Of a DNA stretch of 41,709 bases, positions 15,210 through 35,900 are shown piece after piece (the stretch's first letter is position 1; the number at the start of each line of letters is the position of its first letter). The position numbers and the translations under genes were made by a program. The notes under the pieces are model-generated. The model did no database searches, was not told the origin of the DNA, and saw only the letters and a program-made list of their open reading frames with translations. This DNA comes from Bacteroidota bacterium (GTDB lineage Bacteria; Bacteroidota; Bacteroidia; J057; JAJTIE01): assembly GCA_019638695.1 (NCBI GenBank), contig JAHBTG010000018.1:1-41709 (forward strand). Direction: 5' to 3'.

Positions 15210-15527
15210 ATGGCCGATATCACTGTAACCGAACTCAAACAACGCCTGGACCAGGGAGAAAAGCTCATCATCCTGGATGTGCGTGAAGACGATGAATACA
15301 GAACTGGTAACATAGGGGCCATTCACATCCCGCTGGGTTCGCTCATGACACGCCAGGACGAACTCATGCCCTACAAAGACAGCGAAATCATTGTACACTG
15401 CCGCAGCGGCAAACGAAGCGCAAGTGCCGTGCAGTTCCTGCAAGCCAGTGGATTTGCCAATCCGCGCAACCTGGCAGGGGGTATCTTAGCGTGGAAAGAG
15501 CAAGTGGATCCAGGCATTAACGTATAG
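15210..15527 (+). CDS. Single-domain rhodanese-like sulfurtransferase
   Basis: This 105-residue cytoplasmic protein is one rhodanese domain: IILDVREDDEYRTGNIGAIHIPLGSL, then the active-site loop VHCRSGKRSA with Cys64, and FANPRNLAGGILAWKEQVDP at the end. Such proteins carry a persulfide on the cysteine and act in sulfur transfer or cyanide/thiosulfate metabolism. Its last 11 bases overlap the end of the convergent membrane-protein gene. Confidence 0.92.
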   Translation: MADITVTELKQRLDQGEKLIILDVREDDEYRTGNIGAIHIPLGSLMTRQDELMPYKDSEIIVHCRSGKRSASAVQFLQASGFANPRNLAGGILAWKEQVDPGINV

Positions 15528-17103
15528 CTGCCTTTTGATAAAGGTAATAATACTCTCCTTTATCATTTTGCACAGAATCCAGCTTATTAAAACTTCTCAG
15601 GCCGGCAATGTAGGCAGGCAAATCCTCTTTGCGATCCGCAGGTTGAATGATGATAAACTCAGGGTTATACGAGGCCATGAACGCCTCTATACTGTTCTTC
15701 CTGGGAAACAAGGCATCGCAATGGCCAGACATATAATAAGACCAAAGGGCCCAGTCATTTGCCAGCACAGTACGCTCAGGCGCCAGGTATTTCTGAAAAC
15801 GGTTTCTGACAGCCTGTTTGGCAGCCTCCTTATCAGGATACCGGTAGGCCAGCAGAAAAGAAAAGCACAACAGGCCTAAAAGCAACCCGCCTGCCGCTTG
15901 ATTCTTATAGGTGAGGATAAATTTATGCATAGCACGCCACCTATGAAAGAAGTACGTTTGAACCGGCTGACGGATCTCGACCAGGCTTAGAACGACCAAT
16001 AACATAGAAAGATCAAAATATCTATGCAATGCTTTATGATATCCCATAGAAGTCATCAGAAACAATAACAACACGGATAGCCCTACAGCACGAACTATAA
16101 TCTTCTGACCTCGCGTAAGCTTCTGCCAGCACACAACGACACTTCCCAGAAAGGCAAGCAGTATCATGCCATCAAACCGTTTGAAGAATAGTTCGCCAGG
16201 CAACATTTGTATGGAATGCAGGAGCTTGCGGAACCAGTTATAGAGGTATGGTGCACGGAACAGGTCAGAAAACACCAGGTTCCCCCCCTGCCTAAGGTGA
16301 TCATATTCACTCCCCAGCACATCATAGCCCCAGACCATCATCATATGAGGGCGGCCGGATTGCGCCCCCAGCCAATCACGTAAAACCATGCACAGGAACA
16401 AACCCAGGACAAAGGCTGCAACGCCAGGCAATCCCAGGATTATATGCTTCCGAACGGGCGGCTCAGCAGGCCATACAAGCCTAGCACCCAGAAATACGGC
16501 ATAGATCGCTATCATCTCTGGTCGGAACTGGCAAGCAATTGCCGCAATAATGCCCAAATAAATCCCCTGCCTGACGGATAGCATTGGCAAACGAAGCCAA
16601 CGCCACATCAGCACACATAAGAAGATGGCAAATAATTGCGTAGGATTCAGTATAAGGCTATAGTGCGAGGATAAAACACCAAACAGCACAGTGACAAAAC
16701 TCGCCTGCAACCAGGGTAACTGATAGACCCTAAGAAGAAGAACATACATTGCCCATAACACAGCCACATAAGCAACTAATTGCCCCGCAATAAAAGGCGC
16801 GTTGGACTCAACAGGGAAAATCTTGCAAAAAGGTGCAAAATACAGCACCGGGCCCAGGTATGAGAACCAATAGGGAACAGCATCTCCAACAGCTGCCTCC
16901 CCACTCAGGATCTGCTGAGGGGTAACAAAAACTGTGTTTGCCAGGCAGCCTTCTTCAGCCAGCTTCTGAGCCGGCACCAATACCATACTGATATCTAGCC
17001 ATACATCTGCCTTACTCAGTATCCAATATTTAGAAACGAGCAGGGCACTCCCTAGCAAAAGCAGCAACAGTACACTCTTAACAGGATACCGGTGCGTGAG
17101 CAT
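15517..17103 (-). CDS. Polytopic membrane protein, GT-C glycosyltransferase-like topology
   Basis: The 528-residue protein has about ten hydrophobic helices, starting with VKSVLLLLLLGSALLVSKYW, and a soluble C-terminal portion of about 100 residues. An early acidic residue in KADVWLDISM (first loop), the multi-helix topology and the late FIIIQPADRKEDLPAYIAGLRSF segment resemble GT-C mannosyltransferase-like proteins of Bacteroidota, but I cannot name a family. It starts 22 bases after rplI on the same strand and may be read through from the ribosomal operon. Its composition is a little more AT-rich than its neighbours. Confidence 0.6.
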   Translation of the reverse strand: MLTHRYPVKSVLLLLLLGSALLVSKYWILSKADVWLDISMVLVPAQKLAEEGCLANTVFVTPQQILSGEAAVGDAVPYWFSYLGPVLYFAPFCKIFPVESNAPFIAGQLVAYVAVLWAMYVLLLRVYQLPWLQASFVTVLFGVLSSHYSLILNPTQLFAIFLCVLMWRWLRLPMLSVRQGIYLGIIAAIACQFRPEMIAIYAVFLGARLVWPAEPPVRKHIILGLPGVAAFVLGLFLCMVLRDWLGAQSGRPHMMMVWGYDVLGSEYDHLRQGGNLVFSDLFRAPYLYNWFRKLLHSIQMLPGELFFKRFDGMILLAFLGSVVVCWQKLTRGQKIIVRAVGLSVLLLFLMTSMGYHKALHRYFDLSMLLVVLSLVEIRQPVQTYFFHRWRAMHKFILTYKNQAAGGLLLGLLCFSFLLAYRYPDKEAAKQAVRNRFQKYLAPERTVLANDWALWSYYMSGHCDALFPRKNSIEAFMASYNPEFIIIQPADRKEDLPAYIAGLRSFNKLDSVQNDKGEYYYLYQKAAIR

Positions 17104-29862: not shown

Positions 29863-32800
29863 TTACAGGACTTGCGTCTCGGCAACTACCTCTGCATGCT
29901 GCGTATAGGCATTGGGCTGGTGGTTCTCCTGCGGGTCACTGCCTTTGCGTTTCTTGCGCGTGAAGAAATTGCGCCAGCCGTCCAGGATCTTGTAGACCAC
30001 GGGCACCACCATAAGAGTGAGGAACATAGATGACGTGAGCCCCCCGATCAGCGCCCAGGCCAGTCCGCGCTTCCACTCGGCACCGGCCCCCCCGGCCAGT
30101 GCGATAGGCATCAGGCCGATCACCATGGCAAAAGTGGTCATGAAGATGGGACGGATCCGCTCCCTGCCGGCTTCTACCAGGGCGTCTATGACGTTGAGTC
30201 CGCGTTCCCGGGCACCATTGGCAAAGTCCACCAGCAGGATGGCATTCTTGGCAACCAGGCCTATAAGCATAATGAAGCCCAGCATAGTAAAAATACCCAT
30301 GCTTTCGCCTGCCAGCGCCAGCGCCATGAAGGCACCTATGGTAGCCAGCGGCACAGAGAACATTACCACAAATGGGGTAAAGTAGCTGTTATAGAGGGCC
30401 ACCATGATAAGGTACATGAACACGATGCCCGCCAGCATGGCCATGCCCATGCTTTCGCCCGACTCACCCAGGCTTTTGAGGTTACCGAAAGGAATGATCT
30501 GTACGCCTTCGGGTACCACTTTCTGCTCCTCCATTTTCTGGCGCACCACGGCATCCACTTCGCCTTCTGTTTTGCCACGCACCTGGCTTTGTACCACTAC
30601 GGAGGGGATACGGTCATACCGTTCCAGCTTGGCGGGACCTACACTGCGCTCGATACGGGCAAAGTCCTTGAGCTTGACCACACCACCGGTATTGGTCACA
30701 AACGCGAGGTTGGCCACGTTGTCTTCGTTCCGGCGGTCCTCCTGGTCCAGCATGACGCGGATGTCAAACTCGTCTTCTCCGGCACGGTATTTCACATCAT
30801 CATAGCCGGTGAGGGCGGTTTGCAGCACCGTGCCCACATCTGCAGTGGTAATGCCCAGTTCTGCCATCTTCTGCTTGTCCACGTCAATACTCAGCTCCGG
30901 CTTGCCTTTCTCAGAACTGGTGCGGGCATCGACAGCGCCATCCGTCTCTCGCAGGATCTTAACGATCTTGTCTGCCGTCTGGGCCACCTTTTCCCGGTCG
31001 GGCCCCGTCACAATATACTGCACAGGGTCATCATCCGCCGTACCAAAGATGCTGATCTGCCGCACACGCAGCTCCACCCCGGGATATTTGAGCAGGAGGC
31101 TATTCTTGAGCTTCTGGCTCAGTTGCAGGGTAGACAACCCGCCCCGGACTTCTATACCCTTCAGCATAATGGTCATATCCACGATATGGCTGGAACCTTG
31201 CAGGAAGTCCAGGCCATCTTCGGAGGCGCCTACCTTGGCAATCACCTTTTCCACGCGGGAATCATTCATCAGATCCCGTTCAATATCCTGGCTGACCAGG
31301 TTGGTCTGGGCCAGCGGTGTTCCCTGCGGCAATTCGACGAGTAGTGAGAACTGGCCGCGGTCCGCCTGCTTGATAAACTCATTGCCAATGTAATTGCCCG
31401 CAATCATGAACGAGAGGACAAACAGGCCGATGGCCGAGAGGGCTACCCAGCGCTTGCGGTGCAAACACAGGTGCAGGAAACGTCCATACCAGTTGGTCAG
31501 GCGCTGGAAATTGCGCTCAAACCACCGGCCAAAGCGGTCTGACAGGCTATTGCCATCCAGGTGCTGCAGCTTGCTCAGGCGGCTGGCCAGTACCGGCGTA
31601 ATGGTGAAAGAGACGAAGAGCGACATCATGGTGGAGAACACCACCACCAAGGCAAACTCCCGCATAATATTGCCAATCATCCCGCCCACCAGGGCCAGGG
31701 GGAGAAACACCACCACGTCCACCAGGGTGATGGACAGAGCCGTAGAGCCGATCTCGTTCCGGCCGTCCACGGCTGCCTGGCGGCGGTGCTTGCCCATTTC
31801 CATATGTCGATAGATGTTCTCCAGCACCACAATGGAGTCATCCACCAGGATGCCGACTACCAGCGACAGGGCCAGCAGGGTCATCAGGTTCAGACTAAAG
31901 TCTACGGCATACATCACCAGGAACACCGAGATGATGGATGCCGGGATGGATACCATGACAATAAGAGAGTTGCGCAGGCTGTGCAGGAACACAAACATCA
32001 CAAAAGCCACGAGCAGCACCGCAAACAGCAGGTCCACCATCACAGAATTAGCCGCTTCTATCGTAAACTCCGTGCTATCCTGCGCCACGTCAAACTTCAG
32101 CTGGATATTGGCATACTCCTTTTCCAGCGCCGCCATCTCCTGCTTCAGCAAAGCTGCCGTTTCCACTGCATTGGCATCGCTCTGCTTCTGGATCTGCATA
32201 CCGATGCTGTTGATACCGTTGATGCGGTTGATATTCATATAATCCTTCACCCCGTCTACAACTTCCGCCACATCGCGCACATAGACCACCCCGTTATACC
32301 CGGGAGGGGTAATGATGCGCAGGTCGCGCAGCTTGTTCAGGTCCGGGCTTTTACCGGCCACACGGACGACCAGTTCATTGTTGCTGTTCTTGACATTGCC
32401 CGTGGGAAAATCCAGGTTACCGGTCTGTATGGTCTGCACCACTTGCAACAGGCTGAGGCCATAGCTGCGCAGCTTATCCTCATCTACATTGATGCGGATC
32501 TCGCGCTCTTCACCCCCGATAAGGGCGATCTGGCCGGTGCCGGATACCTTGTTGAGGCGGGGTTGCACCTGGTTCTTGACAAACTGGTAGAAATCCTTGC
32601 TGTCCATAGTGGAGGTAACACCCAGGCGCAGGATAGGCAGCTCGTTGATGGCAAACTTGAGCACCAGGGGCTCGTCCGCCGTTTCGGGCAGGATATTCCG
32701 GATCTCATTCAGTTTGCGCTGCACGTCCTGTGTGGTCACATCTATATCCACGCTCTGGTCAAACTCCAGCATCACAAAGCTGAAGCTCTCTATGCTCTGG

Positions 32801-33045
32801 CTTTTGGCATACTTGAGGTTCGATATGCCGGAGACGGCATCTTCCACCCGCTTGGATACGTTGTTCTCTACCTCGCTGGGACTAGCCCCCGGGTATACCG
32901 TTACCACGGAGATAACGGGCGGCGCCATATCCGGCAACAATTCATACTTCAGATTATTATATCCGAAGCCACCCAGCAGGCCCAGCACGGTGAAGATCAC
33001 CACTACCAGGGTAGGTCGGTTTACTACGGTTTGGGTAAGCGACAT
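29863..33045 (-). CDS. RND-family efflux transporter, inner-membrane subunit (HAE-1 type)
   Basis: The 1060-residue protein is a proton-driven RND pump: a first transmembrane helix (RPTLVVVIFTVLGLLGGFGYNNLKYELLP), two large periplasmic loops, and two sets of membrane helices. The Asp pair of the proton relay lies in helix 4 (GILVDDSIVVLENIYRHME), which marks the hydrophobe/amphiphile group rather than heavy-metal pumps. GLVAKNAILLVDFANGARERG in the second half is the equivalent of the AcrB/MexB family signature. It is the second gene after its adaptor (66 bases). No outer-membrane channel gene is adjacent, so TolC-type partners must lie elsewhere. Confidence 0.95.
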   Translation of the reverse strand: MSLTQTVVNRPTLVVVIFTVLGLLGGFGYNNLKYELLPDMAPPVISVVTVYPGASPSEVENNVSKRVEDAVSGISNLKYAKSQSIESFSFVMLEFDQSVDIDVTTQDVQRKLNEIRNILPETADEPLVLKFAINELPILRLGVTSTMDSKDFYQFVKNQVQPRLNKVSGTGQIALIGGEEREIRINVDEDKLRSYGLSLLQVVQTIQTGNLDFPTGNVKNSNNELVVRVAGKSPDLNKLRDLRIITPPGYNGVVYVRDVAEVVDGVKDYMNINRINGINSIGMQIQKQSDANAVETAALLKQEMAALEKEYANIQLKFDVAQDSTEFTIEAANSVMVDLLFAVLLVAFVMFVFLHSLRNSLIVMVSIPASIISVFLVMYAVDFSLNLMTLLALSLVVGILVDDSIVVLENIYRHMEMGKHRRQAAVDGRNEIGSTALSITLVDVVVFLPLALVGGMIGNIMREFALVVVFSTMMSLFVSFTITPVLASRLSKLQHLDGNSLSDRFGRWFERNFQRLTNWYGRFLHLCLHRKRWVALSAIGLFVLSFMIAGNYIGNEFIKQADRGQFSLLVELPQGTPLAQTNLVSQDIERDLMNDSRVEKVIAKVGASEDGLDFLQGSSHIVDMTIMLKGIEVRGGLSTLQLSQKLKNSLLLKYPGVELRVRQISIFGTADDDPVQYIVTGPDREKVAQTADKIVKILRETDGAVDARTSSEKGKPELSIDVDKQKMAELGITTADVGTVLQTALTGYDDVKYRAGEDEFDIRVMLDQEDRRNEDNVANLAFVTNTGGVVKLKDFARIERSVGPAKLERYDRIPSVVVQSQVRGKTEGEVDAVVRQKMEEQKVVPEGVQIIPFGNLKSLGESGESMGMAMLAGIVFMYLIMVALYNSYFTPFVVMFSVPLATIGAFMALALAGESMGIFTMLGFIMLIGLVAKNAILLVDFANGARERGLNVIDALVEAGRERIRPIFMTTFAMVIGLMPIALAGGAGAEWKRGLAWALIGGLTSSMFLTLMVVPVVYKILDGWRNFFTRKKRKGSDPQENHQPNAYTQHAEVVAETQVL

Positions 33046-33111
33046 ATAAGTTGCTATTTATTAAATAAGGAAGAGGGGAGGTGGAATGCGTAGTGATAAC
33101 TGGCCTGAAGG

Positions 33112-34173
33112 TTATTTCTGCACGGTCACCGCCACACTATCTTTCAGGTTATACTGACCGGCCACTACCAGTTGGTCACCGGCAGCCAGCCCGGAGGTTA
33201 CCTCCAGGATATCGGCCTGCACCACACCCAGGGTAATCTTGCGGCGCACGGCCTTGTTACCCTCCACTACAAAGACCTCGGGATTTTTGATACTGCCAGC
33301 CAGGGCATTGCGCGGGATGAGGATGCGCTGTCCGGCGGCTTTCTGGGTAAAGTGTACACGGGCAAACATACCGGCCTTCATGGGCTGTCCGGAAGTGTTC
33401 TGGATAGTCACTTCTACAGGATAGTTGTGGGCGCGGTCGCCTTGCACACCTATATAAGTGATCACCCCTGCCAGGCGGGCATTCGGATAGATGTCTGTGC
33501 TTACCTCCACGCGGTCGCCGTTCTTCAGTTGAAACACATCGCGCTCCGTCACATTCACTTTCACCTTCAGAAGGCTGATGTCCGTCAGTTCCACCACGGG
33601 AGTGCCGGGATTGGCCAGCTCGCCATATTCAGCCAGTTTTTTGGTCACCACACCGTAGCTGGGGGAGAAGATGCGGGTATCCTTCAACTGGCGCTCTGCC
33701 ACGATATACTGGCTCTCTGCAGTTTCCAGGGCCAGGCGGGCATTATCTACCTGCTGACCGGTAGCCACGTTACTTTTGGCCAGGTTCTCAAAACGCTCCA
33801 TATCCCGTTTGGCCTTCTCATAATTGGCTTTGGCGGCCTGCAGGTTGGCCTTCTTGAGTTCATCATCCAGCTGGGCGATGGGAGTGCCGGGCGCCAGCAC
33901 ACTGCCTTCTTTGACGAACAAAGACACAATGCGGCCGTTGGTTTCGCTGGAAACCGTAATGACCCGGTTGGCTTCTACCGTGCCTAGCAGTTCCAGCTGG
34001 CCGGTGAGCTCGCCGGTCTTCACTTCATCTACCTTTACAGGGGTAGCAGACAGGGTTTCAACCTTTGCCTCGGCCTCACGGGCGGCCTTGTTGCCCTCCA
34101 TTACGGAAACAGAGCCCACCACCACTGCTGCTGTGATGCCCAAGCCGACGACTATGCGGATAACCTTTTTCAT
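33112..34173 (-). CDS. RND efflux periplasmic adaptor (membrane fusion protein)
   Basis: The 353-residue protein links the RND pump to an outer-membrane channel. It starts MKKVIRIVVGLGITAAVVVGSVSVMEG, an uncleaved anchor or signal sequence without a clear lipobox. A lipoyl half-motif follows (LLGTVEANRVITVSSETNGRIVSLFVKEGSVLAPGTPIAQLDD), then a short coiled-coil hairpin (ANYEKAKRDMERFENLAKSNVATGQQVDNARLALETAESQYIVAERQL), the second lipoyl half and a beta-barrel. The frame is open upstream to 34359, but that part covers the operator-like repeats and lacks coding character, so the ATG at 34173 is chosen. Confidence 0.93.
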   Translation of the reverse strand: MKKVIRIVVGLGITAAVVVGSVSVMEGNKAAREAEAKVETLSATPVKVDEVKTGELTGQLELLGTVEANRVITVSSETNGRIVSLFVKEGSVLAPGTPIAQLDDELKKANLQAAKANYEKAKRDMERFENLAKSNVATGQQVDNARLALETAESQYIVAERQLKDTRIFSPSYGVVTKKLAEYGELANPGTPVVELTDISLLKVKVNVTERDVFQLKNGDRVEVSTDIYPNARLAGVITYIGVQGDRAHNYPVEVTIQNTSGQPMKAGMFARVHFTQKAAGQRILIPRNALAGSIKNPEVFVVEGNKAVRRKITLGVVQADILEVTSGLAAGDQLVVAGQYNLKDSVAVTVQK

Positions 34174-34216
34174 ATAGGGTAGAAAATAAGACGGATTTAC
34201 CAGTGATAAATATTCA

Positions 34217-34244
34217 GGAAACTCTGAACACTCTGAAAGTTTCC
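34217..34244. promoter_or_regulatory. Inverted repeat with internal direct repeats, candidate operator
   Basis: GGAAACT (34217-34223) and AGTTTCC (34238-34244) are perfect arms. Between and into them runs ACTCTGAA twice (34221-34228 and 34230-34237), spaced 9 bases apart. The site is centred in the 177-base divergent region between the adaptor gene and the Cys/His-rich gene, where a shared regulator would bind. Confidence 0.45.
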
Positions 34245-34338
34245 GAAATAACGCAAGCGTTTTGGAATTGGTTGCAATCCCTTTGAAAAAAATCAATGAG
34301 CGGCCAAAAAGCCGCATGGACGGAATCTGGCTTTGCCT

Positions 34339-34346
34339 TATATTAG
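34339..34346 (+). promoter_or_regulatory. Near-consensus -7 box (TATATTAG) of the Cys/His-rich gene
   Basis: One mismatch from TAnnTTTG, followed by GGGT and the ATG at 34351, again with 4-nt spacing. This supports the 34351 start over an in-frame upstream one. Confidence 0.45.
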
Positions 34347-34350
34347 GGGT

Positions 34351-34806
34351 ATGAATCAAAAGATGCGAAACAGTCTGTTAATGGCCGCCCTGTCGCTGGT
34401 GCTGGCCGTGGGTGGGGCTATTGGCGTGCGGGCCATGCAAAAATGCGCCGGCTCCGAAGAAAAGTGTACCACCACGTCTCCGCATACCGGTGGCCAGCAT
34501 GCGTGCAAAGGCGGCAAAAGCGGCGCCTGCGCACACGGTTGTCCAAACGGGAAATGCTGCCAGGAAGGGAAGGCCGCTTGCTGCCACAAGGGCATGCACG
34601 GAAAAAAAGCCTTCGCCTGCTGCAAAGGCCAGGGAAAAGCCTGCTGTATGAAGGGACCTAAAACCTGCACGGCAGACAGTGCTTCCTGCCAGGCAGATTC
34701 TACGCATCATGGGCATTTCCACCACCGGGGTCACCACAAACACCACGGCCGGGGCGGCAAACAAGGCCATGAGAAAGCGGTTTGCCCCCATATGAAGGAG
34801 CAATAA
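34351..34806 (+). CDS. Cys/His-rich exported protein, putative metal binder
   Basis: The 151-residue protein has an N-terminal hydrophobic segment (NSLLMAALSLVLAVGGAIGVRA) and no known domain I recognise. The rest holds 16 cysteines and 16 histidines. The middle has five CC pairs spaced by short Gly/Lys-rich linkers (GKCC, AACC, ACCK). The tail is a His-rich run (HHGHFHHRGHHKHHGRG) ending ICPH-like (AVCPHMKEQ). This is the composition of metal-sequestering proteins, but no metal specificity can be read. It is divergent from the RND adaptor gene. A role in metal handling or in sensing for that pump is inferred. Composition and reading-frame codon use match the neighbours. Confidence 0.6.
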   Translation: MNQKMRNSLLMAALSLVLAVGGAIGVRAMQKCAGSEEKCTTTSPHTGGQHACKGGKSGACAHGCPNGKCCQEGKAACCHKGMHGKKAFACCKGQGKACCMKGPKTCTADSASCQADSTHHGHFHHRGHHKHHGRGGKQGHEKAVCPHMKEQ

Positions 34807-34853: not shown

Positions 34854-35900
34854 ATGGAAACACCCTTGCCGGATATTCGCGGGCTGAGCAAAGAGGAACT
34901 GGCCGGTTGGTTTGCAGAACGGGGAGAACCCTCTTTTCGTCTGAAGCAAGTCAACGAATGGCTATGGGAACGCCATGCCACCGCATTTGGGGACATGACC
35001 AACCTGGGCAAAGAATTGCGGGCTACACTGGCAGCGCACTTTTGCATTGGACAGGTAAGCATTGCCACCGAACAGCGCAGCCGCGACGGCAGTATTAAAT
35101 ACGGGTTCCGCCTGGCAGACGGTGAACTGGTAGAGGGGGTACTCATCCCCACGGCCAGCCGGGTCACGGCCTGTGTAAGCAGCCAAAGCGGGTGCAGCCT
35201 GTCCTGCAAATTCTGTGCAACCGGCTACATGCCGCTGAAGCGCAACCTGCACGCCTACGAGATATTTGACCAGGTAGCCACCCTGAGAACCCGGGCCCTG
35301 GCGGAGTATGGGCGTCCGCTGACGAATATCGTGTACATGGGTATGGGTGAGCCCCTGCTAAACTACAGGAATGTGATGGAAAGCATCCAGCGCGTCACCA
35401 GCGCAGAAGAAGGGCTGGGTATGAGCGCCCGGCGCATTACCCTAAGCACTGCAGGGATCGCCAAGATGATCCGCAAACTGGGCGATGACGGCTTCCGCTG
35501 CGAATTTGCACTCTCGTTACACGCGGCCACGGATGCCAAGCGCAGCCTTATCATGCCCATTAACGAGAGCAACAGCCTGGAAGCGCTCACCGATGCGTTG
35601 CTGCATTTTTATGACCGCACCGGCACCCGCATTACGCTGGAGTATATTGTGCTGCAGGACCTGAACGACGGGCCGGAGGATGCGGAAGCCTTACTGCAAT
35701 TCTCCCGGGTAGTGCCCAGCAAGATCAATATCATTGAGTACAACCCCATTGCAGAAGCCGGCTTTGTCAATACCGGTGCCCCACGGATGGAAGCTTTCCG
35801 CACCCACCTGGAGCGCGGAGGGGCTATTGTCAACGTACGCCGCAGCCGGGGACGGGATGTAGACGGGGCCTGCGGGCAGCTGGCTATCAAGGAACGGTAA
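34854..35900 (+). CDS. rlmN: Dual-specificity rRNA/tRNA adenine C2-methyltransferase RlmN
   Basis: The 348-residue protein is a radical-SAM enzyme that methylates A2503 of 23S rRNA and A37 of some tRNAs. The N-terminal domain reads RGLSKEELAGWFAERGEPSFRLKQVNEWLWERHA. The [4Fe-4S]-binding CxxxCxxC is in SGCSLSCKFCATGYMP, followed by NIVYMGMGEPLLNY and ITLSTAGIAKMIRKL. The catalytic second cysteine is in DGACGQL near the C-terminus. The length is normal for the family. The ATG at 34854 lies 4 nt after a consensus -7 box. Confidence 0.96.
   Translation: METPLPDIRGLSKEELAGWFAERGEPSFRLKQVNEWLWERHATAFGDMTNLGKELRATLAAHFCIGQVSIATEQRSRDGSIKYGFRLADGELVEGVLIPTASRVTACVSSQSGCSLSCKFCATGYMPLKRNLHAYEIFDQVATLRTRALAEYGRPLTNIVYMGMGEPLLNYRNVMESIQRVTSAEEGLGMSARRITLSTAGIAKMIRKLGDDGFRCEFALSLHAATDAKRSLIMPINESNSLEALTDALLHFYDRTGTRITLEYIVLQDLNDGPEDAEALLQFSRVVPSKINIIEYNPIAEAGFVNTGAPRMEAFRTHLERGGAIVNVRRSRGRDVDGACGQLAIKER

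Follow-up and report, generated by a model that had tools for sequence, protein, structure and literature searches.

In a 41,709-nucleotide stretch of a draft Bacteroidota genome (hereafter the window), a gene for a small Cys/His-rich protein was found to be divergent from an operon encoding an RND periplasmic adaptor and a drug-type RND pump. The same arrangement recurs in G001, the sole other genome of the family that was compared, which belongs to a different genus; the recurrence thus rests on two sequences. In both genomes the intergenic region contains a 28-bp inverted repeat which, across the order, precedes genes for TetR regulators, outer-membrane factors (OMFs) or adaptors. We propose that the small protein may be an exported, disordered soft-metal sponge that has been kept with the pump of a TetR-type efflux regulon, a reading to which we give about an even chance. 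The relevant features of the window are as follows.

29863..33045, minus strand: HAE1-type (drug-type) RND pump, 1060 aa; PF00873, E-value 5e-254; Asp-Asp in TM4; 69% identical to the G001 pump
33112..34173, minus strand: RND periplasmic adaptor, 353 aa; TIGR01730, E-value 1.6e-62; PF16576; 53% identical to the G001 adaptor
34174..34350, no strand: divergent intergenic region, 177 bp, between the adaptor ATG (34173, minus strand) and the small gene ATG
34217..34244, no strand: inverted repeat GGAAACT-N14-AGTTTCC, 28 bp, probable TetR-type operator; also in the G001 intergenic region; unique in the window
34351..34806, plus strand: gene for the small Cys/His-rich protein; ATG start, 151 aa, 16 Cys, 16 His, four CC pairs, His-rich tail; positional homologue in G001
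34372..34428, plus strand: hydrophobic N-terminal segment (residues 8-26), from sequence; signal peptidase I may cleave at VRA|MQ, or the segment may stay uncleaved as an anchor
34441..34689, plus strand: cysteine-rich middle (residues 31-113) with 15 of the 16 Cys; CC pairs at 69, 77, 90 and 98
34705..34743, plus strand: His-rich tail (residues 119-131); 8 of the 13 residues are His
34854..35900, plus strand: rlmN RNA methyltransferase, the downstream neighbour; TIGR00048, E-value 8.6e-104, above cut-off; in G001 another gene takes its place beside the homologue

Translation of the open reading frame bore out the original prediction of 16 Cys, 16 His, a hydrophobic N-terminus and a His-rich tail, and the gene does face an adaptor-pump pair across 177 bases. 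The sequence has four CC pairs (69/70, 77/78, 90/91 and 98/99) rather than the five that had been claimed. Cys and His each make up 10.6% of the protein; among the window genes tabulated in their correct frame, Cys amounts to 0-2.7% and His to 0.6-3.4%. Of the 16 His, 7 lie within residues 119-129. Judging from its N-terminus, the protein is probably exported or membrane-anchored. Because a basic residue immediately follows the hydrophobic stretch in both homologues, an uncleaved anchor is as possible as cleavage at VRA|MQ. An AlphaFold model contained a helix at residues 3-25 (pLDDT about 72-75), and nearly everything beyond it had pLDDT below 50. With only two sequences behind the model, this is consistent with disorder but is no proof of it; the protein may well be disordered.

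Since low-complexity Cys/His proteins diverge fast, relatives were sought by position. In G001, the gene divergent from the orthologous adaptor encodes a 105-aa protein that likewise begins with a hydrophobic segment, contains 12 Cys (two CC pairs among them) and 7 His, and ends in a His-containing tail. Its CC region is QACCRGVGKKQACC, vs FACCKGQGKACC in the window protein. Local alignment of the two proteins gave a z of 3.5, which 0.4% of composition-preserving shuffles exceeded; the mature regions alone aligned weakly (z 2.5, 1.7% of shuffles). The check proposed with the original prediction was to look for homologues with the same CC spacing and for their recurrence beside RND pumps. The Cys/His layout does recur at the orthologous pump, but the Cys spacing is only loosely kept, and the small protein is far more diverged between the two genomes than the pump.

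The gene on the far side of the small gene is rlmN in the window and an amino-acid permease in G001. Because this neighbour differs while the adaptor-pump pairing stays, the conserved link of the small gene is to the pump and not to rlmN. No convincing Cys/His gene was detected in the rlmN upstream regions of 29 other genomes, and a link to rlmN was rejected on this basis; a weak match just upstream of rlmN in one genome (G013) was dropped as not plausible as a gene. When genome contigs were scanned with the adaptor, five loci came up, of which the four inspected were all without an upstream Cys/His gene, and none was found beside the other adaptors examined in the order and beyond (about 29-46% identical). 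The pump of more distant relatives comes without the small gene. Recurrence next to RND pumps, the second part of that proposed check, was therefore seen in another genus with a changed far-side gene, but in one family only. The link between the small gene and the efflux locus is real and lineage-restricted, spanning two genera of this family.

In the window the inverted repeat is separated from the adaptor ATG by 43 bp and from the small gene ATG by 106 bp; the corresponding distances in G001 are 38 bp and 80 bp. When 22 genomes of the order were searched with spacers of 12-16 bases allowed, 16 sites were found, and in 16/16 the spacer was exactly 14 bases. The gene preceded by the element encoded a TetR protein at 11 sites, an OMF at two and an adaptor at three (the window's genome G000, G008 and G001), and in most of the 11 TetR-side cases TetR was followed by an OMF. 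The element is usually present in single copy per genome; G001 has it twice, on separate contigs, at a TetR-OMF locus and at the adaptor-pump locus. A control with the reversed pattern gave 9 sites vs 16, and the bare counts are unconvincing; what makes the element convincing is its constant spacing and the position of its sites before efflux genes. A search allowing two mismatches was discarded as noise, with control counts as high as the real ones, and a literature search for a TetR operator matching the element returned nothing specific. These positions suggest that, throughout the order, the 28-bp element is likely the operator through which a TetR protein controls an RND efflux system, and it provides a concrete candidate operator for such a system in a poorly studied group. 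A repressor would bind there and likely control the pump. Co-regulation of the small gene is possible, but uncertain because the element is nearer the adaptor.

The adaptor-pump operon of the window (29863-34173) contains neither TetR nor OMF genes. In the family of the order that has larger genomes (loci L054, L055 and L059) the OMF gene directly precedes the adaptor gene and TetR precedes the OMF gene. As TetR, OMF and adaptor are consecutive there, the system appears to be split in the smaller-genome families. All 16 sites precede TetR, OMF or adaptor genes, which argues that the window pair is probably one half, split off from the rest, of a tripartite system under TetR control in which both loci carry the operator. 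Compared with TetR-OMF-adaptor-RND multidrug operons, the window has the same kind of adaptor and pump and the same operator as the order's TetR-OMF operons, whereas its adaptor and pump genes stand apart from TetR-OMF, and a Cys/His gene is divergent from the adaptor. In the window's draft genome, which is 95.9% complete, the G001 TetR query matched nothing, and the sole TetR_N protein, at C90, is of the TetR_C_24 type; either the assembly lacks the regulator, or it has been lost or has diverged. The TetR-OMF locus of G001 that carries the same operator (L095:1420-3030) is divergent from a cysteinyl-tRNA synthetase-like gene, as judged by eye.

Under the proposed reading, a small disordered protein, exported or anchored in the inner membrane, would face the periplasm, where its clustered Cys and His would bind soft metal ions (Cu(I), Ag(I), Zn(II), Cd(II)) and act as a sponge. 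The adjacent adaptor and drug-type RND pump would be half of a tripartite system with its TetR and OMF elsewhere, and the shared 28-bp operator would govern expression of the pump and perhaps that of the small gene. The sponge would also help the pump in its function. Such a sponge might instead be merely the pump's neighbour, that is, a metallothionein-like exported protein for metals or thiol reagents that has its own promoter, was inherited in place and has no functional or regulatory link to efflux. This alternative is possible, though clearly short of an even chance. It fits the occurrence of the pairing in only two related genera, the operator's position in the adaptor-proximal part of the intergenic region and the lack of such a gene beside the remaining adaptors examined in the order. 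However, the far-side gene has changed (rlmN vs permease) and the pump side has been kept, which argues against a mere neighbour, although the small protein has diverged far more than the pump. It is unlikely, in our view, that the protein represents a new exported Cys/His-rich metal (or thiol) sponge family that serves as a working accessory of a TetR-controlled drug-type RND pump, with the pump exporting metals or metal complexes that the sponge delivers. Other RND/OMF sets are present in the window's genome, one of them CusA-like by inspection; these would be more natural metal pumps, which counts against the reading proposed above.

The ACR_tran domain (PF00873) spans the full length of the window pump. 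Both this protein and its G001 ortholog have VGILVDDSIVV in TM4, the Asp-Asp pair of drug-type RND pumps, in agreement with what had been predicted for helix 4. The best NCBIfam model was NF033617 at 745 bits, under the 1250 cut-off of this named multidrug subfamily, and the CusA/CzcA model TIGR00914 reached 405 bits (cut-off 701). Although the drug-type Asp pair of the pump was thus confirmed, the pairing with a metal-binder-like protein is less of a surprise than first thought, as resistance to zinc, copper and tungstate has been linked to MdtABC, itself a drug pump (background of PMC4107485). The BaeSR regulon (MdtABC, AcrD, Spy) similarly combines metal-implicated drug-type RND pumps with a small periplasmic protein (PMC4107485). 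Its regulator, however, is of another class. In addition, Spy is a chaperone and is not Cys/His-rich. If the link proposed here holds, the locus offers a testable case of a drug-type RND pump working with a Cys/His-rich periplasmic binder, and the line between drug and metal efflux would be blurred.

The drug-type Asp pair, the best scores with HAE1-type families and the 16 thiols, which could react with electrophiles, would also suit a protein with organic ligands: a thiol-rich periplasmic trap that aids the drug-type pump by capturing toxic electrophiles, toxic compounds that react with thiols or the metal complexes of such substances. We consider this improbable, since metal binding explains the His-rich tail better and no precedent was found.

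With regard to metal sponges, SilE may be viewed as the nearest functional analogue of the small protein. It is a disordered periplasmic sponge of silver resistance, encoded with the SilCFBA RND effluxer (PMC5008109). Like SilE and PcoE, the window protein would be small, exported, disordered and rich in metal ligands and is encoded with efflux genes, its export being suggested by the N-terminus and its disorder by a low-confidence model. In contrast, SilE uses His and Met, not Cys, and its pump is a heavy-metal RND protein, whereas the window pump belongs to the HAE1 type and its operon has a probable TetR-type operator. Neither SilE nor PcoE was matched in sequence. Bacterial metallothioneins of the SmtA type are also small and Cys/His-rich; they are cytoplasmic and are not known to carry a signal peptide. 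The window protein matched no Pfam or NCBIfam family. Bufferins, peptides modified by DUF692/MNIO enzymes, are exported, Cys-rich and proposed to sequester metal, and the window protein, if exported, resembles them in these first two respects. A bufferin/MNIO substrate was rejected because no DUF692 gene (PF05114) was detected in the window's draft genome, while two control genomes gave matches. What is new here is the orphan status of the protein family and its unusual partnering with this pump; the mechanism we infer resembles that of known metal sponges.

The small protein is an orphan. Neither Pfam nor NCBIfam, metallothionein models included, contained a family that it matched, and the PDB had no relevant chain. 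Protein searches of first 60 and later 395 genomes from the class gave chance composition matches only, several of them in wrong frames; a scan of genome contigs revealed no relative, and a profile built from the window and G001 sequences found nothing credible beyond those two genomes. A plasmid search also gave nothing, and plasmid spread of the gene was rejected on this ground. Many cysteines, CC pairs among them, might suggest a periplasmic redox or disulfide protein, or a sensor, coupled to the pump. We think this very improbable: no thioredoxin-like or sensor family was matched in Pfam, NCBIfam or the PDB, the structure model shows no folded domain, and the two homologues differ in the spacing of their cysteines. 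Thus, of the three functions originally suggested (metal buffer, sensor and redox protein), a metal buffer is the most likely, and the other two found no support.

The gene at 34351-34806 is real. Of the six frames, the annotated one scored highest for synonymous-codon usage (6.6), and its GC3 (0.64) is similar to that of neighbouring genes. The idea that GC-rich DNA has produced a Cys/His-rich frame by chance, alongside antisense ORFs of equal length, draws on the modest margin over the best antisense frame (2.0) and on the presence of antisense ORFs of 104 and 161 aa, but is the least probable of all, because a positional homologue with the same layout exists in G001, where codon usage favours its frame (GC3 0.76), and because the window gene has an ATG start, a hydrophobic N-terminus and a stop just 5' of rlmN. 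Elsewhere in the window, two long ORFs on the minus strand, 749-1906 and 15517-17103, have GC3 values of 0.35 and 0.51, respectively, vs about 0.62-0.74 in other window genes, and were possibly acquired horizontally.
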